47,175 bases of DNA from Asparagopsis taxiformis. Its lineage: Eukaryota > Rhodophyta > Florideophyceae > Bonnemaisoniales > Bonnemaisoniaceae. Position 1 is the stretch's first letter. Each line of letters starts with the position of its first letter. This document shows positions 15,068-30,601 of the stretch, in pieces. A program made the translations under genes and the position numbers. The stretch covers positions 1 through 47,175 of the forward strand of contig JALQPE010003090.1 in the NCBI GenBank assembly GCA_030407315.1. Reading direction: 5' to 3'. Under the pieces are notes generated by a model. The model was not told the origin of the DNA and made no database searches. It saw only the letters and a program-made list of their open reading frames with translations.

Positions 15068-16136
15068 ATGGTGAACGACGGTGATACTCTCCCGAGCTGG
15101 CTGCGTGCCAGCATTCCTTCCGGCGAAGAAGCTGCGACGCCGCTACGCACGCCGTCTGCCACTTCGCGCTTCGCTTCTCCTGCGCCCGCAAGTTCCGAGA
15201 GCCCGTTTTACCTTTCCATGGCTCAAGCGTCATCCGCAAGCGCTCCGACACCGGCGGCAACGAGTGCCCATAATACGGACGGCGTTGGCGCATTGCCCGG
15301 CGTCGACGCGATGGTAGACGTGACTGCTGCTCCTGCATCCCCATCTGGGAGTCGCACGAACGTCAGTGTGGCCTTGTGGTCTATTCCTGTTCCTTCCTCG
15401 GTCTCTCTTCCTTCGGCTGCGCAACACGTACCCGTTGTCGCCCCGTGTGCGCGTTACGAGGACCCTTCTGCGTTCCTTTTCCTTCCGCGCGCGATGCCGA
15501 CTTGGTCTGAGTTAGGCCGTGTCCAATATTTTCCGCGGCGTTTTCAGTGGGTGCGTATTGCCGATGTCAACCGCTACGCGGTATTGCCCGGCCACAAGAA
15601 CGCGCAGGCCGTGTGAGACGCGCGGCGCGAAGCGGCACTATGCGACTTGGCCGTACCCACCAATCTTCATGCGACGCTTATTTCCTTGAGGATGCAGCGG
15701 ACGAGCGGCTTGTGCGTCATCTGGCGCGACTCCGTACGATGCGTCGCGACGAATTCGCGCACCTCGATCCGTGGGCGGCAGCTCCCAGCGCCGGCTTCCT
15801 GTTGGACGGTGGTGTCCCCTGGAACGACATCGAGCAAGAGGGAGAAGTCAGTGAGCCTTGATTCTTCGACGCGGGGATGCGCTCCGAAGCGCGCCGCGAG
15901 TTACGCTTGCGCCGTTCGACCGGTTACTTCGTCACGTATCGCGACGCTGAATTTCGCGAGTTTCCCGAGGATCGTGCTGGCGCCTTCTTCCCGCGCTACG
16001 ATCCGCGCGACTGGCCTGAAGCGCCTGAATCGTTATCTGTTCCCTTGCCTTGCGTTTTCCATTACGCACCGTCCGTTCTTCTTGGCCTTGATGTGCCCGT
16101 GGAGACGCTTTCTTATTTCTGGGCCGTTGCCCTTAG
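15068..16136 (+). pseudogene. gag-like gene of retroelement A, truncated with two nonsense changes
   Basis: Homologous to the element B gene at 27684. Both begin M-x(5-7)-LPSWLRA, share SP.Y.SMAQASS, then MPTW.ELGR and RYAVLPGHK.AQAV. The frame stops at 15614 where B has Trp (TGG against TGA). It stays open at the place where B has a one-base deletion, then stops again at 15859, once more a B Trp codon read as TGA. Similarity continues (RREL.LRR..GYFVTYRD, YDPRDWPEAP.SLSVPLPCVFHYAPSVLLG) up to YFWAVAL and ends where LTR3 begins. The protein would be the structural Gag of the element. No zinc knuckle is present in this part. Confidence 0.75.
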
Positions 16137-16831
16137 TGTAGGACCAGCCGGGATGGCGGTCACTAAGAGAGTTCTAGAATCGCTTGCCTTGTCAGGGCGT
16201 GTTGAACCGTAACGCGCTCGTGAACTTGCGTTTCGCACGTCGCTCGGTCGCGGAGGCGATCGGGTGGTACAACGGCGGAACGCGCAGGGTCGATCGCAAC
16301 ACGGGATTCGCGGGCCGGCGCAAGCCGTGATCTCAGGGTGAGATCACCGAGTAAACTCGAGCTCAACACGATCCACGCAGGGGTCGTCAATCCCTGGCCT
16401 AGCAGTATGCGACGCAGCGCGCGGTCTCGCGGTGCGACGCAATTCGACGGTCGGTAAACGCGGCGCGCGCGCACGTACGTCGGCGATCGTGAGCAATCCG
16501 CACGCAACGTCGTAACGCAATCGGTCCTCGCGACGCGCTCAACGCTTAACTCGTAGCTGCGAAAGTGCTGACTGTTTATTGGTAGGGTGCGAAGCCATGC
16601 GACCACTAATAGCTAACTTACTTGGGACAGGCTGTCCTTCTGTGGCCGGCCGGCGGCGGCCGCACGCTCGCCCGCAAAAAGGGAAATATTTTGGGAAAAA
16701 GACTTTCGTCATAAAAAACCCAAAAAGGGAAATAAAGGGAAATTCGCGGAAATCGCTACACGTGGCGCGGCTCGCGGTTTCGTGGCAACGTACGCGCGCA
16801 CGCGCTCGCATTGACGCTCCGTGACACGTAA
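16137..16831 (+). repeat. LTR3, 5' LTR of retroelement B
   Basis: Begins TGTAGGACCAGCCGGGATG at 16137 inside A's gag and ends GTGACACGTAA at 16831, where the large transposon starts. If the transposon and one copy of GTAA are removed, the LTR end reads directly into TCAAGGCGCCACGCG at 27368, equivalent to the LTR/leader junction of element A. This identifies it as the 5' LTR of the element continuing at 27364. Confidence 0.8.
16828..16831. other. Left target-site duplication (GTAA)
   Basis: GTAA immediately before the left terminus; the same four bases follow the right terminus. Extending to five bases fails (CGTAA against GTAAT), so the duplication is 4 bp. Confidence 0.85.
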
Positions 16832-18812
16832 AACACGACTTCCGAGCTAATGAGAATAATTTCCTAAATTGAGTATCAATAAAATTTATATTTTTAGCTC
16901 AGTCAGGGGCATCAAGCGCTACTTCTGAGCTCCTCTACTACGCTACTTCTAGCAAAACGAGTCCTTAACCCTTTTAACGGAAGAAAACAGATCGCGTTGG
17001 AACGTCCAAAATCTATGCATTCTTCCACTGAGATGTGAAGAGCATGACGATCAAGAATGTTAATAATTTAAATAATTCTCTGTTCTGTAGAATGTACATG
17101 TGCTGCTTGTGTCACAGGGTTAATCAATGCCTCTGACACCAGCATTTGAGGCCCATTGGCCCCGCCGTTGTTGCGAAACGGTGTCTGGGATAATATTGGA
17201 AGATAGGTAAATCTCAACTCATGAGTGATATCATTTACTCTATTACGTTATTATTCTGTCAGCCAATGGGTGCAGAACAGGATGGTGCACTTTAACGTGG
17301 ATCTTTCCACGTTTTTTCAAATAATTTCTGATTCTTCATCCATTGCAACCAGATCATCCGCGAAATTAGATCATCAATCCCTGGACTTCAGGGCACAGTG
17401 AGAACAACTGCCAATACATATCATCTACGCTGTACTGAGTATCGAACACTGAACACCAGCGAAACTAAGTGAAGACGGCGTGCGTTGCTCGTAAGCTTGC
17501 TAGTCGATATTTCAGCACTTTTTTGATGCAGTCAATACTACGCTGAAATCATCCAGCGAGCCAAATGGAATCGAAGCAAATTCAGCCCTGCCGTGTCGCT
17601 TGCTTCAAGATATGTAAGTTGCGAGTTATATCCATTTTCGCCCTTACAAGCCTTCAATCGTATTTACCATGGAATACACCCATTGATGAACACCTAGTTC
17701 TTCCCTCTTACGGATTTGCTCTGCACCGTGCCCATTCTTCAGTCACCAGTACTTTGCATTCATGGTTTCCAATTTCATGCCATGTATCAAGTGGCTTTCG
17801 AAACATATCGGTTATCAGGGATACACGTGCACGAGACGCGTCTGGTGCTATTATACATAAGTGCACCTAGGATTAATAGAACTGAAGTCAGGTCACTGTG
17901 CTACTCCGCGAAAAAATGACAAAGTAACTGTGACTACCAATAGCGTATGACTGAAATTCTTCTAGTCCCTACGGAGGCTTCAGAACATTGCTGGTATCAT
18001 CTGAACGCAATTTTCACCTTAATGCGTGCTAAATCTGAGATTCCCAGCCGTTGTGTATTTCCACCAGATTGTCAGCGATTGAGCTGCACAAATCTGGGTA
18101 CGGGAGGATCCTCAATGCTGCAGATTGCGAAATATAGATGAAGGCTGTCACATATGATGACCATATGCGCTTTGTACAGGGAGATAGAGAAATAATGTCA
18201 TGTATGTCAATTTATTATGTGCGGAATCACAATTCTATGAACCCTCTATCATTCCCTGAGAAGTTCAATCAACAGGCTATTGGAATCATTCACAAACTGA
18301 TGAGTACATAACACCATCACTATTCCATCACAATCTACAGTGTTGCAGAGTTCGTAACTAACTCCTATTCATATATCACGTGCGACCGAATATAATCTGT
18401 CCTCCAAAGTGAAGTAAGAGAGCACTATCCGCTTCTCAGAAGTTCAGGTACACACTACGTGGCTGAAGGAGTGAGGGAGGATAGGATACTGGCCAATGAA
18501 CAGACGGATGAAGGGAGCAAATGGGGTGGCTGTAGTAGACGTTGAACTTTGGATTTTGAAATGCTCGACTCGACTGCACTCTGAGCTTACCATTACTCCA
18601 TTACTGCTCCAAGCCAGATCTAATTTTCTTCTGAACGTCTACTGGAATCCTCTTGTCCTTTGTGAGGCGTGAAAATCTGGCTAGAACTGTGTTAACAGAA
18701 ACATTGTCAGTCCAGATGTTCCTTTCGGCTTGATAACCACTTACAAATGAGGCAGTGTACTTAGCCCTGAATATATCCTGAGCGAAGGCTGACCCAGCCC
18801 CACTCCTCCTAG
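16832..18812 (+). repeat. Left terminal inverted repeat (about 1.98 kb)
   Basis: Matches the reverse complement of 25384-27363. Three open frames inside it translate identically in both arms (for example 17565-17870 against 26631-26326), so over those parts there are no differences. Two small differences were found: one base near the inner end (18804 against 25392) and possibly a one-base length difference. The open frames are not credible genes. The inner end contains the last codons of the DUF7869-like gene. Confidence 0.9.
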
Positions 18813-18830
18813 AGACTGAAGTAGCCGGAT
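18601..18830 (-). pseudogene. Duplicated 3' end of the DUF7869-like gene in the left arm
   Basis: The minus strand here encodes the same C-terminal residues found at 25386-25595 (GAGSAFAQDIFRAKYTASF, then TRLTKD-like SRLTKDKRIPVDV and the stop). The upstream part of the gene is missing: similarity stops at the inner end of the inverted repeat. It is a passive copy produced because the repeat extends into the gene. Confidence 0.8.
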
Positions 18831-19025
18831 AGAAAAGTGAAGGGTTTGCTCGTGAGTTCATTTGCATAACATATGAATAACTACAGATCAGCAGCTCTAA
18901 ATTAGATAACAATATCTACAGTTCCGCAGAACTGCTCGCCGCAGCCTGGCAGTTGGAGGACAGGAGAGAAAGTTGGTAGTTGAAAATTTTGCGTGGAAGT
19001 TGTTTTTGTGCTGAGAGAGAGGTTT

Positions 19026-21761
19026 TCACTGACTCAAGGAGACTGTTGGTTTTTCTAAGGGACCGATGGGAGCTTCATCGCTACCGGTGAAGGCTGCACT
19101 TTTTCCGGTGGATTGGTCCGGTAGAATTGGACCATGGAAATCGTCTTCGCCTTCAGATTCTTGTGAAGATCCACAATCCTCAGAGAGATTCTGTATTCCT
19201 CTCTTTTGCCCTCTCACAGCTGTTTCTATTATTGACAGAACAGTAGATATTCCTCGGGATCGTGTTGTTATTTCGCTTCGAACACTGGATCTTTGTTCTG
19301 ATTGAGCTCTTGAAGCAATTCTATCAAGGCGTTCGAGAGCAAGCTTGTAACACTTTGGGTCCTTCTCTACGACGACACACTTGCGACCAGTTGCAATACA
19401 AGCGATGGCAGTCGTCATAGTTCCTGCGAATCCATCAAATACAAGTCCTCCGGGTGGACAGAAAGTACAAAGTATCTCGGCAAGAGCAGCACTGTTTTTC
19501 TCCTCCACTCGAACTGGACTCCTCCCGACACACAATTTCCTCTGTCTACCTACTTTGTCAAGAACAGCAAATTTTCGGGTGTGTGAACATGGAATTAGAC
19601 TATATGGCGTTTTGAGATCAGCACCAAATTTTTCGTCATGGGGAGGAAGGTATCCCATACATGCAGGCTCGGCACAGTTCTGTGGGACGAGGAAGCTTTT
19701 GTTTCTTACCTGTTGAGAAGAATCCTTCACAAGCAAGTATGGGTAGTTCCATACGGCAAGGCCCGCTGCTTTTAGGGCATCCCACCATTTAGATAGCAAT
19801 GCAAACGAAGTAAAGATCAGAAAATAACCGCCTGGCTTCAGGCTTCTTCTGCAGAACCTGCAAAACCGAGCAATGGCCTCTTCGTCTATGAAATCGTTAT
19901 AGAACCGACCGGTATTTGACAAGTTACTCCCTTGAAGTGCATAAGGAGGGTCTGTTAAGATGAAGTCAAAGAGATCTTGCTGCTCTCTATCCGATGAGCC
20001 GTATATGGATTGATCATATTGTTCCCAAGTCATATTATAATGGGAAACGCCAAATTTCTTGAGTGCGCTCACATTACTTGGATTATCATTTTCTTCTGAT
20101 CCAGTACAATCCTTCACTTGAGACGACATAGCTGCACCCTCCTCAGAGATTGAGACAATCGGGATGAAAGGTGACCCACTAGCTTCCTCAGTTGGGTTGC
20201 TGGAAACTTGATTATAGTCCACTCCTGCATTTGAAGAAGAATGGTTTTCTGGGGTAGAATTCTTCCCTGAACCGTCTCTGTTCTTCTCAATTTTCTCGAG
20301 ATCATCTGCATCATCCTCTCTTCCTTTTGATTCCGTTTGAAAGGACGGAGATTTATCAATACCTGTTTGAGGAGAGGAACTGAGTGCATTACTTTCTGCG
20401 TCAGTTTCCTCTCGAACAAATATGCCCTTAAAACGAGCCAAGTCCATTCCTGAAGTACTCGGGAAGTGTTGCTTGTATAAGTCCCAGAGAGGTTCTAGAA
20501 TGTCCTGTGGATTGTTCATGTTGTTCTCTACATGCTCATCCAACCTGTTTGTCTGAAGAAGATTCAAACGGGCTGTTTCAAGTTCAGGAGGCCATTTTTT
20601 TCCTTTCCCTCCCAGAAATAGCTCGAACTTTTCTGCTTCTAGTCTAGCCGCTACAGCAGCTTTAAACTCCTTCTCGATAACTTTGTACGAGACAGGTTTG
20701 TAATAGTTCAGAGAAGCGTGATATCTTGCTCTTCGCAGCGCATGAATTGCGTCCGTAGTATTCTTACAGCGCATGAAAGATGTCGCTTGTTTGAGACTAG
20801 ATGAAAATATGTTTCGATAAATTCGACAATCTGGAGTGCTTCCATTTCGAGGTGACTTCTGATGGAATCCAGAAGCGATCTCGGGATGTTCAGAGTTGAC
20901 GATCGCTCCAATTTCTTCTAAAACCTCGTTAGGAAGTCGCAGAGCTGTCCTTGCCAGCTGAACTGTAGTCGCGCTCGACCACTTCTTTCCACCTGCAACC
21001 TTTCCTGCAACCTCCACAGCAGACGGCATTTGACCAGTACATGCTTCTATCTCTTTAGCCTCATCCTTAAATGCGCACAGAGTGTCATAGAAAGTGCAGG
21101 CCACAACGTAGTCCTTCTTTTGCTTTTCGTTTGCATTGCGGGCATATGCCCTGAGGATTGACTTAGAAGCCGACTGTATAACCATCACAGTCCACTGAAA
21201 ACCTGCCCATCTATTCGGTGTGTCCTTCATCAATTCACTGATGGCCATATGACGGTGGGCACCGTCAATGATACCATACCAGACATCATGTTTCTTCACC
21301 ATCTCCTCAGCTTTCTTCCTTGCCTCGTTTGCACTTAATCCATCAGCTAAGAAATTGCTTTCTAAGAAAGAATATGGAAACGATTCATAGACACCTTCTA
21401 GCCGGACAACAGATGGGAGACAACCTCCGGATGTGATTCCTTTTGTCATTCCATCATCTTCAATGTGACCTGAGAAAGATTCCTTCAAACGTGAAACACC
21501 AGAAGGAGAAATGCTTCGAACCTTCGAGAATGGAATACATACATCAGGATCAAGCTTCATAATCTCTGCACCTTCTAGAAGATCACGAAACGCCTCTGTA
21601 ACCCCTTCAAATCCGTCGGCAATTGATTCAGAGTTATGTTGGAGTGATTGTGTGGGATAACCTCTCCCAGAAGGGACACTAGCTTCAACAGGTGATACTT
21701 TCCTGGATTCTCGCGTCAATCTTGATTTTGAATATGACTTCTTGGGACGTTTAGTTCCCAT
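19026..21761 (-). CDS. ParB-like domain fused to beta-class DNA N6/N4-methyltransferase
   Basis: A single 911-residue frame; ATG 21761 is the first ATG (an in-frame TTG lies two codons upstream). The N-terminus is basic (KRPKKSYSKSR, nuclear-signal-like). Residues about 70-215 resemble ParB/Srx-type nuclease domains: CIPFSKVRSISPSGVSRLKESF and the loop WYGIIDGAHRHMA (D166-H171). A helical segment follows (about 215-290), then an acidic Ser-rich linker (about 430-560). The C-terminal part is a DNA methylase of PF01555 type: motif IV LTDPPY (D604-Y607), SLKPGGYFLIFTS, and the SAM-binding motif FDGFAGT (775-781) with VVVEKD after it. Motif IV preceding motif I is the beta-class order. DPPY is usual for adenine-N6 enzymes, while N4-cytosine enzymes mostly have SPPY/F. 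ParB-methylase fusions are familiar from phages and bacterial mobile elements, so a prokaryotic origin is likely. Catalytic residues look intact. Confidence 0.88.
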   Translation of the reverse strand: MGTKRPKKSYSKSRLTRESRKVSPVEASVPSGRGYPTQSLQHNSESIADGFEGVTEAFRDLLEGAEIMKLDPDVCIPFSKVRSISPSGVSRLKESFSGHIEDDGMTKGITSGGCLPSVVRLEGVYESFPYSFLESNFLADGLSANEARKKAEEMVKKHDVWYGIIDGAHRHMAISELMKDTPNRWAGFQWTVMVIQSASKSILRAYARNANEKQKKDYVVACTFYDTLCAFKDEAKEIEACTGQMPSAVEVAGKVAGGKKWSSATTVQLARTALRLPNEVLEEIGAIVNSEHPEIASGFHQKSPRNGSTPDCRIYRNIFSSSLKQATSFMRCKNTTDAIHALRRARYHASLNYYKPVSYKVIEKEFKAAVAARLEAEKFELFLGGKGKKWPPELETARLNLLQTNRLDEHVENNMNNPQDILEPLWDLYKQHFPSTSGMDLARFKGIFVREETDAESNALSSSPQTGIDKSPSFQTESKGREDDADDLEKIEKNRDGSGKNSTPENHSSSNAGVDYNQVSSNPTEEASGSPFIPIVSISEEGAAMSSQVKDCTGSEENDNPSNVSALKKFGVSHYNMTWEQYDQSIYGSSDREQQDLFDFILTDPPYALQGSNLSNTGRFYNDFIDEEAIARFCRFCRRSLKPGGYFLIFTSFALLSKWWDALKAAGLAVWNYPYLLVKDSSQQVRNKSFLVPQNCAEPACMGYLPPHDEKFGADLKTPYSLIPCSHTRKFAVLDKVGRQRKLCVGRSPVRVEEKNSAALAEILCTFCPPGGLVFDGFAGTMTTAIACIATGRKCVVVEKDPKCYKLALERLDRIASRAQSEQRSSVRSEITTRSRGISTVLSIIETAVRGQKRGIQNLSEDCGSSQESEGEDDFHGPILPDQSTGKSAAFTGSDEAPIGPLEKPTVSLSQ

Positions 21762-23253
21762 TTTCAAGAGGAACAGAGTTTGACCAGACTAGTCGCTCCT
21801 GGGCTTTGGTAATTCCCGCAAAGTAGTGACTGAAGATATCATTTAAAGGAAAGCAAGCGAGGGTTTCGTTTCGACCTACTTTGCACTGGTTATATTTTAC
21901 GGACACAAAGCTGGTATATGTTTCCGCATCGTCCTGCAACCAAATGAAATAGGTGCTTCACGGACATGATGCTTAGTGATCGAGGTCTACTATGATTTCC
22001 TAGAGACAGGAGCTCACACAACACCTACTCTCATTTCTGGTCAACCGCAACTTTTTTTTAAATCCGTTCATGATGTATTGTCACTGTCATTGAACTTATT
22101 ATGTTGACCAATGAGCTCGAGCATATCTGGCGGATAAAATTTCCCGATATACACATGCTCTACCGTGTAATGAAATTCTATCCCTGTAGAACGCTCTTAT
22201 GACTTGGAAAATGGTTTTGAAGCCAAAATGATAACACGTATTGTAAAATGAAGGCCTGTTTGGTGAACACGTCATCTTGAAATGTACAGTGAGTGGTACA
22301 GGCCAAAATTACGTCTTTTCAGCACATCCTGCCAGATGGCATGTTATACACACATATCTTTTCTCGTTTTCCGCTTCGACAGCCCTTGAAAGAATAGTAT
22401 CCTGACATTTACGTTACGGTGAGTTGATGATACTGCTTCGCTCCGAAAAACTGTTTTAGTTCTGGTTTGATGAGAGAGTTGTAGAGAAGTGTAATTTCCT
22501 CCCAGCTGTTGACTGATATAATTGCCAGTTTCTCTGCTTAGGTAGGAGAGCCTTATTCAGTCCAGAACTCTTGGGGACGAAAGGGGTTTCGAATGCCACT
22601 ACATCCCTGGATATCATAATCATCCTCTCTACGTCTCTGTAGACTTCAAGGAGGACATGTGAGGACGTTGAATGTGATCTATGATCACTGCGATACGATT
22701 CGTACCGTTAAATGGTGGTCCTCCAGCGAGCCTCAACAATATCAATATCATTGAAAAGCTTTCATAATATCTCTTTCGAAACACATATATCCATAGGAAT
22801 CTGATCCTATCTGTTACGAGAGCTGTTTAGAAAAAGTTTTACTCAAAATTTTTGTAAATCAGAAAAGCACCAAGTGACATAGGATCTCTCCAGCTATGGG
22901 TACAATATCAGTATCATCATACAGCTTTTCAAATTACTGAGTGGAACAAGCTATCCAAGCAGTCACTTGACAGTTTGTGGCCTTCTGGCCAATTTCAAAG
23001 AGACACATCATAGATGATATCATATCATTGATATGTGTACGTCTGACGTATGTCCTAACAGCGAAACATGACTCTGATTCATATCTGAGTCATACCTTTT
23101 CCGAGACGTTTCTGTAGAACTCCCAGAGTAAAGTGCAGGAGTGGGCATAGTGAAGCTGTATATGCTTCCAGTGCTGCGGAATGTAAGCAGAGCTCACATG
23201 ACAGGAATGCTGCTCACAGGAGACACTCTGTTGATTCTGAGCCCTTGCTCGAT
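21762..23253. promoter_or_regulatory. Central divergent intergenic region of the transposon
   Basis: A 1.49-kb AT-rich region between the starts of the two divergent genes must contain both promoters. A minus-strand frame at 21939-21751 (62 residues, ending with KAQERLVWSN) overlaps the methyltransferase start in another frame and could be an upstream exon or a chance frame. I see no strong repeats or clear TATA elements. Confidence 0.4.
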
Positions 23254-25044
23254 ATGGAATCTATTCCGATTTTCAGACTGAATACGGATGATGCCGAAGC
23301 CGCCCTATTATGTTCAAAATGTAATGATGAGCATCTCTGTGAGGAGACCAATGGAATTATGGATCGTTGTCACCGAGGTAGAATTGCCATTGGGGAGCTT
23401 TGCCAACATCTCACAGTTCCAAAAAAGAGGAAGTACGTTCATGTATCGCGAAACAAACGGAAAGATGAAGCCAAGTCAGACCTCAAGAAGAGAAGGGAAG
23501 AAATGGCGAAAGTAAGTGACATGAAAACTGTTTCTTGTTGTAAAGATGGGTGCTTCAAGAATGTTGAGCAGAGCTACCTTCACGCCCAGAAGTTGCGCAT
23601 ACTTCAAATGGATCGTATTGGCAGGAAATCTGCACTCACCTCTATGTTCAACGGAACAAGTTTCGAGTTCAGCTCAAGAAAAGTTTGCGTTCAATTCCTC
23701 AACAAAGCGTTTGGATTTTCAAGACAGTTGCGGGCTTCTGTTAAGCGTCTCCCAAGTGCTGGAGCCTCATCCTCTCTACTGGCAATTCCAAGAATGAGGA
23801 GAGGAAAAAGCCAGAAGATGCATGTAATGGAGTTTTTACATCACGCTGCTGAATACAATGCAGATAAGATGCCCGACTCGAACGAAACCCATCTACCTCA
23901 TCACCGAAAGCTGGATGTGTATATGGACTTTAGGAATGGTTTCCACGAGAGATCTTTAGACGGGGAAATAATACCACCAGCATCCTATTCATACTTCATT
24001 CGTGTCTGGAACATGTTTGCCAAGCACATAAAGGTTCGAAAAGTGAGGCGATTTTCGAAATGCGACGAGTGCGAGTTCTTACGTTCTGAGCTGGAAAAAG
24101 CTGGAGCAAACGAGCTTCGATCCGCTCCCGTTCTTCAGCGATACCGAGAGCACCACGATTTCATTGCCAGCGAGAGACTGGTATACTATTCAACAAGAAC
24201 ACGGGCAAGAAACAATCCTTCTAAAATTCTCTCTGTCATTATTGATGGAGCAGATCAAAGCGCATTCGGGCTTTCACACTTTGTGGTCAACACTAAAGCA
24301 GAAAAAGGTCACTCTATCAGAGTAAGAATGATTGGAGTTCTCGAACATGGTTCTGTAAACAAAGCGTCACTTTTCCTCATGACAGAAGAATTCGAAAACG
24401 GCGCGAATCATGTGATCGAAGCCATACACCGATTTTTATCGGATCGAGCCTCAGTAGGATTCTTACCTGATACGTTCCATATCCAGATGGATAACTGCAC
24501 TCGAGAAAATAAGAATCGGTTTACGCTTTCTTATCTAGAGTATTTGGTTATGATGGGAGTCTTTCTAGAGGTTAATGCATCGTTTTTACCAGTCGGTCAC
24601 ACGCACGAAGACATCGATCAGATGTTCTCGAGAACTGCAATACACCTCCGGCACAGGAATGCGATTACGATGGAGGAACTCGCTGCAGAGCTGAGAAACG
24701 CGTACAAACCAAAACCGAAAGTATCTCTGATGAGGCACGTAGCAAATTTTTCTGGCCTGTTGAATGAATCAAGAAGTTTAAGGAAAAACTTGTCCTCATT
24801 CTCTGCCTTCCGTTACTTCAAATTCTCCAGGAGACCGGCAGTTTCTGGGAGTGGTCCATTCCCCTTCTCCACTCAAGTGGCGGTAAAGGTGAATCACAGT
24901 CAGTCTTGGGAGTTATTCTCCCCCTCTCGTGACAGTATTCTCACTGGATTTCTTTGCTCATGTCCGAACCTTGCTAAGACACCACCAACACTTGTTCGAT
25001 CTCCCCAAACTTCCATGAAGTTACGAAACGTATTCATTCAGTAG
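23254..25044 (+). CDS. DUF7869-like RNase-H-fold (DDE-type) protein, probable transposase
   Basis: First ATG is 23254 (an in-frame TTG lies three codons upstream), giving about 596 residues. Order: Cys-containing N-terminus (LLCSKC; CCKDGCF near 94-100), a basic helical region, LPHHRKLDVYMDF, then a zinc-finger-like RRFSKCDECEFL. The core follows with spaced acidic residues expected of an RNase-H nuclease: SVIIDGADQ (D331), IQMDNCTRENKNR (D413) and VGHTHEDIDQMFSR (E452, D453, D455). I recall this layout from the eukaryotic family DUF7869 (algae, oomycetes, cnidarians); the family name is from memory. Since it is the only nuclease-like protein in the element besides the ParB domain, it is the best transposase candidate. 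Its end is damaged: coding similarity seems to continue in a second frame to 25595. Confidence 0.82.
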   Translation: MESIPIFRLNTDDAEAALLCSKCNDEHLCEETNGIMDRCHRGRIAIGELCQHLTVPKKRKYVHVSRNKRKDEAKSDLKKRREEMAKVSDMKTVSCCKDGCFKNVEQSYLHAQKLRILQMDRIGRKSALTSMFNGTSFEFSSRKVCVQFLNKAFGFSRQLRASVKRLPSAGASSSLLAIPRMRRGKSQKMHVMEFLHHAAEYNADKMPDSNETHLPHHRKLDVYMDFRNGFHERSLDGEIIPPASYSYFIRVWNMFAKHIKVRKVRRFSKCDECEFLRSELEKAGANELRSAPVLQRYREHHDFIASERLVYYSTRTRARNNPSKILSVIIDGADQSAFGLSHFVVNTKAEKGHSIRVRMIGVLEHGSVNKASLFLMTEEFENGANHVIEAIHRFLSDRASVGFLPDTFHIQMDNCTRENKNRFTLSYLEYLVMMGVFLEVNASFLPVGHTHEDIDQMFSRTAIHLRHRNAITMEELAAELRNAYKPKPKVSLMRHVANFSGLLNESRSLRKNLSSFSAFRYFKFSRRPAVSGSGPFPFSTQVAVKVNHSQSWELFSPSRDSILTGFLCSCPNLAKTPPTLVRSPQTSMKLRNVFIQ

Positions 25045-25595
25045 AGAGAATGGTTTCCAATCACTCCAAACTTACAAGTCTCATCTCTCTCAGAGATCAG
25101 ATCTATAGGGATAGAGAGGAAGCAATTCACTGGGATCTCGAAAACTGTCCAGAGTTGAACGGCCGCCACAGAGAGGATGGGCTCAATTCGGGATATGAAA
25201 GTGGAAAAAGTGAGGAGGAATCAGAACAGTTCTATGATTAAGAGTACGATGTTGGTGATTTTGTCGCTGTTAGAACAAACGATAGGAAATGTTCTTTCTG
25301 GATAGGTCAAGTCAAGGAAACTACCAGAAATGGAGAGGGACTGGTAACCCTTGTGAAACTGCATTGGTACCAGACGTACAACCCTAGGAGGGGTGGGGCT
25401 GGGTCAGCCTTCGCTCAGGATATATTCAGGGCTAAGTACACTGCCTCATTTGTAAGTGGTTATCAAGCCGAAAGGAACATCTGGACTGACAATGTTTCTG
25501 TTAACACAGTTCTAGCCAGATTTTCACGCCTCACAAAGGACAAGAGGATTCCAGTAGACGTTCAGAAGAAAATTAGATCTGGCTTGGAGCAGTAA
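24985..25595 (+). pseudogene. Out-of-frame C-terminal part of the DUF7869-like gene
   Basis: In the frame that overlaps the end of the main gene, protein-like sequence reads FHEVTKRIHSVERMVSNHSK, meets a TAA at 25239 and continues EYDVGDFVAVRTNDRKC, FWIGQV and VKLHWYQTYNP before the stop at 25593-25595. The VGDFVAV...FWIGQV...HWY pattern resembles a small barrel (BAH/chromo-like) tail. Either introns that I cannot place join it to the upstream gene, or this copy carries a frameshift and a nonsense change. The last 70 codons lie in the right inverted repeat. Confidence 0.6.
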
Positions 25596-27363
25596 TGGAG
25601 TAATGGTAAGCTCAGAGTGCAGTCGAGTCGAGCATTTCAAAATCCAAAGTTCAACGTCTACTACAGCCACCCCATTTGCTCCCTTCATCCGTCTGTTCAT
25701 TGGCCAGTATCCTATCCTCCCTCACTCCTTCAGCCACGTAGTGTGTACCTGAACTTCTGAGAAGCGGATAGTGCTCTCTTACTTCACTTTGGAGGACAGA
25801 TTATATTCGGTCGCACGTGATATATGAATAGGAGTTAGTTACGAACTCTGCAACACTGTAGATTGTGATGGAATAGTGATGGTGTTATGTACTCATCAGT
25901 TTGTGAATGATTCCAATAGCCTGTTGATTGAACTTCTCAGGGAATGATAGAGGGTTCATAGAATTGTGATTCCGCACATAATAAATTGACATACATGACA
26001 TTATTTCTCTATCTCCCTGTACAAAGCGCATATGGTCATCATATGTGACAGCCTTCATCTATATTTCGCAATCTGCAGCATTGAGGATCCTCCCGTACCC
26101 AGATTTGTGCAGCTCAATCGCTGACAATCTGGTGGAAATACACAACGGCTGGGAATCTCAGATTTAGCACGCATTAAGGTGAAAATTGCGTTCAGATGAT
26201 ACCAGCAATGTTCTGAAGCCTCCGTAGGGACTAGAAGAATTTCAGTCATACGCTATTGGTAGTCACAGTTACTTTGTCATTTTTTCGCGGAGTAGCACAG
26301 TGACCTGACTTCAGTTCTATTAATCCTAGGTGCACTTATGTATAATAGCACCAGACGCGTCTCGTGCACGTGTATCCCTGATAACCGATATGTTTCGAAA
26401 GCCACTTGATACATGGCATGAAATTGGAAACCATGAATGCAAAGTACTGGTGACTGAAGAATGGGCACGGTGCAGAGCAAATCCGTAAGAGGGAAGAACT
26501 AGGTGTTCATCAATGGGTGTATTCCATGGTAAATACGATTGAAGGCTTGTAAGGGCGAAAATGGATATAACTCGCAACTTACATATCTTGAAGCAAGCGA
26601 CACGGCAGGGCTGAATTTGCTTCGATTCCATTTGGCTCGCTGGATGATTTCAGCGTAGTATTGACTGCATCAAAAAGTGCTGAAATATCGACTAGCAAGC
26701 TTACGAGCAACGCACGCCGTCTTCACTTAGTTTCGCTGGTGTTCAGTGTTCGATACTCAGTACAGCGTAGATGATATGTATTGGCAGTTGTTCTCACTGT
26801 GCCCTGAAGTCCAGGGATTGATGATCTAATTTCGCGGATGATCTGGTTGCAATGGATGAAGAATCAGAAATTATTTGAAAAAACGTGGAAAGATCCACGT
26901 TAAAGTGCACCATCCTGTTCTGCACCCATTGGCTGACAGAATAATAACGTAATAGAGTAAATGATATCACTCATGAGTTGAGATTTACCTATCTTCCAAT
27001 ATTATCCCAGACACCGTTTCGCAACAACGGCGGGGCCAATGGGCCTCAAATGCTGGTGTCAGAGGCATTGATTAACCCTGTGACACAAGCAGCACATGTA
27101 CATTCTACAGAACAGAGAATTATTTAAATTATTAACATTCTTGATCGTCATGCTCTTCACATCTCAGTGGAAGAATGCATAGATTTTGGACGTTCCAACG
27201 CGATCTGTTTTCTTCCGTTAAAAGGGTTAAGGACTCGTTTTGCTAGAAGTAGCGTAGTAGAGGAGCTCAGAAGTAGCGCTTGATGCCCCTGACTGAGCTA
27301 AAAATATAAATTTTATTGATACTCAATTTAGGAAATTATTCTCATTAGCTCGGAAGTCGTGTT
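25384..27363 (-). repeat. Right terminal inverted repeat (about 1.98 kb)
   Basis: Reverse complement of the left arm. Its inner 210 bp (25384-25595) are the 3' end of the reading frame that continues the DUF7869-like gene, so the repeat overlaps coding sequence. The remaining 1.77 kb is AT-rich and apparently non-coding. Confidence 0.9.
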
Positions 27364-27367
27364 GTAA
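27364..27367. other. Right target-site duplication (GTAA)
   Basis: GTAA directly after the right terminus, followed by TCAAGGCGCC, the leader of retroelement B. Confidence 0.85.
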
Positions 27368-27683
27368 TCAAGGCGCCACGCGTACGCTCGCTTACTAAAC
27401 TAACTCAAACGGATGCTTGCGGACTAACGTAAACGCGCGCGCTCGCATCGGTTCCATCGACCAACTTAAATTGCACCACACTCACCCCGACTAACTTCAC
27501 AGCGCGTCCTCGCGCGAAACGTTCTTGTGCACACCTTCAGCTCTCTTCTGTCTGGTTCTCCTCTTCCAATCTTCTTCTTCTCTTCCATCCTTCTGCTTCT
27601 CTTCCATCCTTCTGTCTCCATTCCATCCTTCTTCTCCATCCCGCGCGCGTTCGCTCCGTTAACGCCACACGCGCTCGCGCTTC
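27364..27683 (+). other. Leader of retroelement B
   Basis: Homologous to the leader of element A (CGCCACGCGTACGCTCG, later CACAGCGCGTCCTCGCG). It is followed by a pyrimidine-rich TTCTTC/CATCCTTC tract and then the gag ATG. It is separated from its LTR only by the 10.5-kb insertion. Confidence 0.65.
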
Positions 27684-30601
27684 GTGATGTCGCGCGATAA
27701 TAACGCTCTGCCGAGTTGGCTTCGCGCCGGCGCTGCGCCTCGCGACGAACCGTCGACGCCCACGAACGCGTCTCCTCGCCCTGCGCGCATCGCGTTTCCT
27801 TCTCTTTCAAGCCCGGAGAGTCCCTATTACATGTCCATGGCGCAAGCATCCTCCTCCACCGTACCCGTAACCGCGAGCGGCCGTGGCGTCGTCGCGTCGT
27901 CTGACGTTGTCGCTACGGTGGATGCGACCGCGAATCCAACTTCTGCGTCCGCTGCGCGTTCTGGGAGCGGCGTCCCACTTCGTTCGGTTCCTGCGCCTGC
28001 GTCCGTTTCGCTTCCGTCGGCCGCGCAAGACGCTCCCGAGTCGATTCCGCGCGCGCGCTACGACGACCCGATCGCGTTCCGTTTCATACCACGCCCTATG
28101 CCGACGTGGGCGGAATTGGGCCGTCGCCACTTCTATCCGCAGCGCTTTCAGTGGACGCGCATCGCTGATGTATCACGCTATGCCGTGTTACCCGGCCACA
28201 AGGATGCGCAAGCGGTGTGGGACGCGCGGCGCGAATCGGCGTTGTGCGATTTGGCGGTCCCCCCGAACTTACCGTGCGACGCGTATTTTCTCGAAGACGA
28301 AGCCGACGAACGACTCGTACGCCACTTGGCCGGTTGCGCGTGATGCGTCGCGACGAATTTGCGCGAGTCGATCTATGGGCCGCGGCGCCCAGTGCGGGCT
28401 TCTTACTTGACGGCGGCGTTCCGTGGAACGACGTCGAGCACGAAGGGGAGGCGAGCGTGCCATGGTTCCTGAACGCGGATATGCGCCCGGAAGCGCGGCG
28501 CGAGTTGCGTTTGCGGCGCACGTCGGGCTACTTCGTTACGTATCGCGATATCGAATTTCGCGAGTTTCCTGATGACCGCGTCGCCGCTTTCTTCCCGCGT
28601 TACGATGCGCGCGATTGGCCGGAAGCGCCCGACTCGTTGTCGGTGCCGCTTCCCTGCGTGTTCCATTACGCGCCGTCGGTACTGCTCGGGCGCGACGTTC
28701 CGGTCGAGGCTCGTTTGTATTTCTGGGCTATCGCTCTAAACGAGTGGGTGGTGATGGTTGCCGCCGCGTGGCTTCACGTCGCTTACGTCGAGCGCCGCTT
28801 CTTGCGCTTAAACGAAAAACTGATCGCGGGAATCGAGCGCGTCGGCGTTTCGGCGATCGTGCGGGGCGGAACGTATACGGCGGCGCACCTCGAGAGTCTC
28901 CTGACGGAGCATCGCGCGTGCGCGTGGGACGAAACTCCGGTTTTCGATCTCGCGCCTGGCATGGACTTCAAGGAGGGCGGGCAATGGTTGCCCTGGAGCG
29001 CGGAGCGCGGCGTCGTCGACTGGGCGCATGGTTCGCTTGGCGTTCACCGGCATACTGAAATTCCACATCTCCTTCTCAAGTCGCCGCGCAATCCGTCGCG
29101 CGACGCGTTTGCGAATTTAGAAGCGCGCGATGTCGTTACCGTTGATGCCGTGTTATCCGCGCTATCAACTAACGAACTGCACGTTATGCGCGCGACCGAT
29201 TCGCGCGAGTATGCGCAGTACCTTGGCATGGCGGCGTTGTTGGCGATCGAGCGTCGGCGCTTCCGAGACGGCCGGTATTCTCTTTTCTCCGAGCCGCCGC
29301 GCGCTCCTATCGACGTCGAGCGACTCGACGCGGCGCTGCGCGCGGAGTACATGAAGGTTTACAACGAGTTGCAGGCCTTGAAAGCGGCGTCTTCCGGCCA
29401 CGGCGGGGCTGCGGTCAGCAGCGCGGCGAAGAGCGGCGCGGGTGACGATGCTGCTGCGGGCAGCCGCACGGGCGCAGGCGATGCAACGGCTGATAACGTG
29501 GCGGCAGGTGACGTGGCGACCGCTGTCAACGAGACGGGTGCTGTTTTGGCCGAATCAGACGCGAACGTGTTGCGGGGCCAGCTTGCCGCCGCCGAAAAGG
29601 GCCGGGAAGAGGCGTTGGCGCGCGTGTCGTTGCTCGAAGGAGCTCGCGACGACGCTTTGGCGCGAATGGCCTCCGCCGTGGAGGACCGCAGCGAAGCGCT
29701 GGCGCGTCTGGCGTCGGTCGAGCAGAGCCGTGACGAGGCGGTGGCGCGGGTGACGACGATTGCGCAAGCGCGCGACGACGCTGCGGCGCGCCTTACCAAA
29801 GCGAACGCAACGCGCGACGAAGCGGTGAGTCTCGTGCACGAGGCTGAAAAGACACTTAAGGACGCGGCTGGACGCGAGGCGACGTTAGAGCGCAAGGCCG
29901 GGGAAGATGCGACGCGGATCGAGCGGATGCACAAGGACATCGGCGACCTGCAAGAACGCGTGGCGAATTACGAACGGGCTGCCAGCGGCAATCGTGCGAT
30001 GATCACGACCCTCCAAGAACGTTGCGAGGCTGCTACTTCGGCGCAGGAACGGGCGGAACGTGCGCTTGGCGATGTCGAAGCGAATCTCGCGGGCGAACGT
30101 CAACGGGGCGCGGAGCGGGTTGCTGCGGTGCGTCGGGTGTATACTGCGCGTGAACGGGAGACCGTTCGTAGGATCCAGGATACGATCGAACGCACGCATC
30201 GCCTCGGCACGACGCTGAACGATATCGTTGGCTTAGTGCAGCGGTCACCCGAAACGTCCGCGGCGGGGGTGGTGTCTAACAGCGAGACACAGTCGGTCAG
30301 CGGTCTTAACGAGGGAGCGGAAGGGGAAGGTGATGCGTCAGTCGCGGTGGGAAGCGACGAGGCCGGTCGCGGAGGTGCGCGTCCAACGACTCGCACTCGC
30401 GCGGCGGCCGCAGCGGCTGCACGTCCCGGCGTTCCTCCCTTGCGCCTCGGCGTGCAAGACGGGCGCGTCGTGCGCGTGCTGAACTCCGAGCGACGACGCA
30501 ATCACCAAGCAGACACGGCTTCAAGTCGTGCTCGCACGCGCGGCGCAACGGGCAGTTCTTCGAGCCGACGCACGCGCCGCGAGGATAACGCACGTGAGTG
30601 A
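27684..30601 (+). CDS. gag-like coiled-coil protein of retroelement B (one frameshift)
   Basis: Starts at ATG 27684 (MSRDNNALPSWLRAG). The frame ends at 28343, but the homologous protein resumes in a second frame open to 30601. Aligned with element A, B lacks one base near 28330, so the shift is a mutation or a base error, not a programmed site. Full length would be about 970 residues. Parts: a Ser/Ala/Pro-rich N-terminus; a conserved globular region (YFVTYRD, FPRYDARDWPEAPDSLS, HYAPSVLLGRDVPVEARLYF); then from about 29560 to 30240 a long Ala/Arg/Glu coiled coil with repeated RDEALAR-type units; and a Gly/Arg-rich basic tail (TRTRAAAAAAARPG) suited to nucleic-acid binding. No CCHC knuckle, protease or reverse transcriptase follows, so B looks gag-only or truncated. 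Gag identity rests on its place after LTR and leader. Confidence 0.65.

Follow-up and report, generated by a model that had tools for sequence, protein, structure and literature searches.

A DUF7869 transposon of the red alga Asparagopsis taxiformis with a divergently oriented gene predicted to encode a DNA methyltransferase

The stretch of DNA analyzed here, referred to as the window, comprises 47,175 nt of contig JALQPE010003090.1 of Asparagopsis taxiformis and contains a 10,532-bp mobile element at positions 16832-27363, in which a gene for a DUF7869 protein and a gene for a predicted DNA methyltransferase are divergently arranged. The element terminates at both ends in AACACGACTTCCGAG, located at 16832-16846 on the plus strand and 27349-27363 on the minus strand. 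These are the sole two matches in the window when up to 2 mismatches are allowed, and two end matches of this type arose in 0 of 100 shuffles. The termini form the outer limits of two long inverted repeats, the left being 1,981 bp (16832-18812, plus strand) and the right 1,980 bp (25384-27363, minus strand), which are 99.9% identical in two blocks with a 1-nt offset. The tetranucleotide GTAA is present immediately to the left of the element (16828-16831) and again immediately to its right (27364-27367). The exact ends, GTAA duplication, inverted arms of ∼2 kb and two divergent genes claimed in a preliminary description of this locus are therefore borne out.

The uninterrupted target was sought in the 141.5-Mb genome with a 600-bp probe consisting of both flanks joined by a single GTAA. 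A first look gave 1,083 candidates, and the 40 genomic places scored among them match at 95–99% identity, all spanning the junction, with at least 594 of the 600 bases covered in 36 of them. Thus, insertion occurred precisely into a high-copy repeat, the unoccupied state of which is directly visible. The unit is genuinely a DNA transposon, its target being duplicated over 4 bp, and the presence of two independent genes in host DNA is ruled out by the termini, the duplication and the uninterrupted target sites. The flanking high-copy repeat is GC-rich, with direct repeats at 15443-16037 and 28047-28641 (76–78% identity) on either side of the insertion. A short tandem array with a period of 19 bp is also observed at 27558-27633.

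The rightward gene contains an open frame of 599 aa (23245-25044, plus strand) which matches Pfam DUF7869 (PF25273) at 1.2e-48 and 165.7 bits, exceeding the gathering score of 26 bits. Residues D334, D416 and D458, encoded at 24244, 24490 and 24616, respectively, are invariant across 23 sequences and occur in RNase-H order in the structure model. The preliminary description had proposed that this protein is the transposase, an assignment which is supported as likely: an RNase-H-fold DDD transposase is predicted, and DUF7869, a domain of unknown function, would thereby gain a likely transposase role. A transposase profile found no match among PDB sequences, and Foldseek searches with the model returned weak, mixed matches only, to terminase nucleases, Argonautes, an integrase and Mos1. 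The gene extends past this open frame to approximately 25595, its C-terminal remainder (25004-25595, plus strand; identified by tblastn with the 755-aa frame from copy C1826) lying in another frame, containing one in-frame stop and overlapping the right inverted repeat. Because the gene is disrupted near its C-terminus, the window copy is probably no longer autonomous. As the coding end falls within the right repeat (25384-25595), an inverted copy of it is present in the left repeat (18602-18812), and the inverted repeats may have grown inward. In P0003, a close DUF7869 relative, residues 644-692 weakly resemble a BAH domain (E 0.012, sub-threshold), possibly a chromatin-reading part of the transposase; no BAH-domain match was obtained in two copies from the present genome.

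The second gene, a 913-codon open frame at 19026-21767 on the minus strand with the first ATG at codon 3, is separated from the transposase by a 1.5-kb intergenic region (21768-23244) which is presumed to be the promoter region. It is predicted to encode an N6-adenine/N4-cytosine DNA methyltransferase. The METHYLTRANSFERASE protein P0001 matches Pfam N6_N4_Mtase (PF01555) at 6.4e-13 and 49.6 bits, exceeding the gathering score of 26.7 bits, and contains the motifs DGAHR (residues 168-172), TDPPY (605-609) and FDGFAGT (777-783). DPPY thus stands ahead of the S-adenosylmethionine (SAM)-binding motif, the order characteristic of beta-class methyltransferases. DGxHR in the N-terminal part is invariant in 7/7 methyltransferases and TDPPY in 6/6 aligned, among sequences which are 36–62% identical in the aligned stretches. 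A methyltransferase profile matches DpnA, CcrM and PvuII in the PDB and therefore N6-methyladenine (6mA) and N4-methylcytosine (4mC) are both possible products. The earlier designation was a ParB-like N6-N4 methyltransferase; a ParB/DndB-like N-terminus is weakly supported, as Pfam detects no ParB domain in the methyltransferase sequences and a DndB match, below cut-off, occurs in three of seven sequences (best 8e-5). A profile of the N-terminal region found no chain in the PDB. Three relatives were recovered from public proteins, two being 47% identical over 91% and 45% of the query, respectively, and the third, metagenome protein P0124, being identical over 54% of the window methyltransferase and perhaps originating from the same species, or a very near relative.

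Association of the two genes extends throughout the genome. Searches with the DUF7869 protein produced 74 matches (73 of 857 candidates scored) and with the methyltransferase 51 matches (50 of 2,622 candidates scored). A divergent DUF7869 match is located within 12 kb of 36 of the 51 listed methyltransferase matches, and within 2.5 kb of 33; random placement yields a mean of 0.16 divergent pairs and a maximum of 3 in 2,000 trials. The 36 divergent matches correspond to 34 loci, C1826 and C1645 each appearing as two fragments, and include many near-identical copies, not 36 independent cases. The excess over expectation rules out accidental linkage, the association is genuine, as had been proposed, and it persists down to 35% identity. 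Among the remaining 15 methyltransferase matches, one has a same-strand partner only and 14 have no partner among the matches listed.

Elements were sorted into 13 groups, which are working labels rather than a formal clustering, with at least five further DUF7869 kinds (C491, C603, C1000, C1696 and C2654) falling outside them. A methyltransferase gene is present in 12 of the 13 groups, divergent in 11 and on the same strand in one, and from gene content the methyltransferase thus appears to belong to the core genes of the element group as a whole. Of the 74 listed DUF7869 matches, 38 lack a divergent partner and 36 possess one. Upstream DNA was read for four of these 38, from different groups, and for an element nested in C929, the sole listed partner of which within 12 kb belongs to the enclosing element. 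Divergent methyltransferase sequence is present, split or disrupted in each case, in C158, C974 and the nested C929 element, and in C92 (group L; 132300-134300) it shares the strand of the DUF7869 gene and could belong to a neighboring element. No methyltransferase was detected in the 1,601 bases read in C673. When two young copies were compared, 17 of the 20 differences in coding sequence altered the amino acid, which argues against strong constraint on single copies. The C673 result and these coding differences suit a passenger, selfish or neutral, that was acquired in a single event and has been retained since, as does the capture of genes by other DNA transposons, such as Fanzor1 in the available text of PMC3627910. 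This explanation is nonetheless unlikely, since DGxHR and TDPPY are invariant at the divergence noted above, the methyltransferase frame is open in many copies, and the gene is retained even where its orientation to the transposase differs, as in group L.

The exact 15-base end occurs nine times in the genome, eight of these forming four full pairs and the ninth standing by itself (C2885, match ∼2.8 kb). Among the pairs, those of C293, C1656 and C1657 share the 20 printed flanking bases on each side and represent one locus with the duplication CAAG. C1656 differs from C293 by 5 mismatches and 45 gap openings, and because these differences are mainly small gaps, an assembly error is suggested. 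C1826 is a related copy in which the methyltransferase match occurs in two parts ∼6 kb apart. The group F element (C1695) is 10,012 bp and begins AACACTACTTTGGC, and the group G element (C1711) is 11,172 bp, begins AACACTAGTTTGG and has inverted repeats of 2,331 bp at 99.8% identity. A group I element, which begins AACAACCATTTCGC, is nested in the right inverted repeat of a group F copy (C929:4803-24645), with AATC duplicated perfectly, and other group F copies show this insertion site uninterrupted. Both ends were read for 11 insertions, nine of which have perfect 4-bp duplications (GTAA, CAAG, TTCG, ACTA, ATTA, CTCC, AAAA, ATGG and AATC), the exceptions being C2187 (CTTA/ATTA) and C2735. Full copies with the same termini and 4-bp duplications, which the preliminary description had suggested looking for, therefore exist. 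Many copies of one group are recent: 11 have equal transposase match scores, comparison of seven across their full frames showed them to be identical, and both genes are open in seven of the 11. No viral relative was confirmed when viral contigs were searched with the two proteins, and no prokaryotic one when genome contigs were searched with just the transposase. The genome contains one match to the RuBisCO large subunit, the nearest PDB entry being 8bdb, from the red alga Griffithsia, which makes a red algal host likely.

With respect to a methylation target motif, inspection of the inverted repeats of three groups by eye revealed no clear overrepresentation of 4-base palindromes. The 8-mers occurring three times in the first 700 bases are AT-rich in groups A and F and ATCGCATC in G, none being common to the groups. 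The group F methyltransferase of the C929 copy has an extra cysteine-rich C-terminal tail, PHD-finger-like by eye, for which Pfam returned nothing.

Combined, these observations make it quite probable that the element is a DUF7869 cut-and-paste transposon carrying a divergent gene for a predicted methyltransferase that would likely mark element DNA to control transposition. The DUF7869 transposase would bind and pair the AACAC ends, excise the element and join the ends to 4-bp staggered cuts, a step which is well supported by the anatomy. The N-terminal domain would direct binding of the methyltransferase to element DNA, with the inverted repeats or the intergenic region as the sites methylated, and this mark could license or restrain the transposase and so set the time of its action. 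We infer this self-methylation, and the basis for the regulatory step is conservation of the pair by itself. A methyltransferase which instead counters host defence, marking the element against silencing or nucleases, or which methylates host DNA, would not regulate transposition. This alternative is possible but somewhat improbable; it draws on the same pairing data and on the bacterial-type enzyme with its separate, weakly supported ParB/DndB-like region, whereas the divergent layout, with a spacing of 1.2–2.3 kb in 33 of the 36 matches, suits regulation equally well.

Control of transposition by element-encoded methylation could be approached in this genome. The accessible text of PMC12477816 puts forward a self-marking accessory role for ParB-methyltransferases encoded by transposons. 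Self-marking is directly addressable here because many recent copies of one group, seven having both genes open, and 40 scored uninterrupted sites are present in the same genome, such that long-read methylation calls could show whether, where and with 6mA or 4mC the elements mark themselves.

Target duplications are 6 bp in Polintons, 8 bp in hAT and 2–3 bp in CACTA elements, absent in Helitrons and 4 bp in the Sola superfamily. The 4-bp duplications in 9 of 11 insertions thus rule out Polinton, Helitron, hAT and CACTA elements, and the earlier comparison with known classes had omitted Sola. Sola elements were reportedly described with a DDD transposase by Bao et al. in 2009, and D334, D416 and D458 correspond to this feature in both sequence and model, as do the duplications to a 4-bp target. 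According to PMC12477816, which cites Iyer 2011 and Petroll 2025 (Bostrychia), similar ParB-methyltransferase proteins are encoded by transposons of green and red algae. The TTAA target of Sola3 fits none of the nine perfect duplications. Similarly, the AWWT duplications of Sola2, as given in the available part of PMC3627910, fit none of the nine.

It is fairly probable that the element is simply Sola-1, in which case DUF7869 would be the Pfam name for the Sola-1 transposase and the methyltransferase an accessory gene already reported for Sola-1. In the accessible text of PMC12477816, Sola1-1_Ec32 of Ectocarpus is a giant DNA transposon with a gene for a ParB-like protein with an N4C/N6A methyltransferase on the strand opposite the transposase, and a Sola1 element of Salpingoeca combines a 4-bp duplication with an ORF lacking an identified functional domain (PMC6875170, available part). 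The likeness to Sola-1 is one of description, and the misfit of Sola2 and Sola3 targets would leave Sola1 as the only candidate. The window element fits the description of Sola1-1_Ec32 but is not formally assigned to Sola, because the likeness is descriptive and its duplications disagree with the targets of Sola2 and Sola3. The claim of an apparently undescribed class is not supported, the pair having already been reported for Sola1-1_Ec32 (PMC12477816, accessible text). A literature search for this gene pair, with thin coverage of subscription journals, returned that paper only, and within the same coverage no paper mentioned DUF7869. The gene pairing is therefore in print, and what is added here is that the methyltransferase is seemingly core to the whole group. 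A separate superfamily, in which AACA ends and a 4-bp duplication would accompany a DUF7869 transposase and the methyltransferase would be an obligate second core gene, is doubtful; it would be the first eukaryotic transposon group to write its own methylation mark in the transposition cycle.

Dam methylation controls transposition of Tn10 and Tn5, and here too adenine methylation may govern how the transposase is expressed and how active the ends are, although the methyltransferase belongs to the host in those systems and is element-borne here. DpnA and CcrM share the position of DPPY ahead of the SAM-binding motif but are bacterial enzymes that act by themselves and lack the long N-terminal region. 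Sola2 elements with Fanzor1 resemble the present element in having 4-bp duplications and a transposase accompanied by a captured accessory gene, but differ in that the accessory is Fanzor1, duplications are AWWT or AT-rich and terminal inverted repeats are 12–21 bp (PMC3627910, available part). As described in the accessible text of PMC12477816, which also mentions giant EnSpm elements in red algae and cites similar proteins from green and red algal transposons, Sola1-1_Ec32 differs in length (21.5 kb compared with 10.5 kb here), in its methyltransferase protein (1104 aa compared with 913 aa), in host, a brown rather than a red alga, and in being one family, whereas the gene pair here occurs in 12 of the 13 groups examined.
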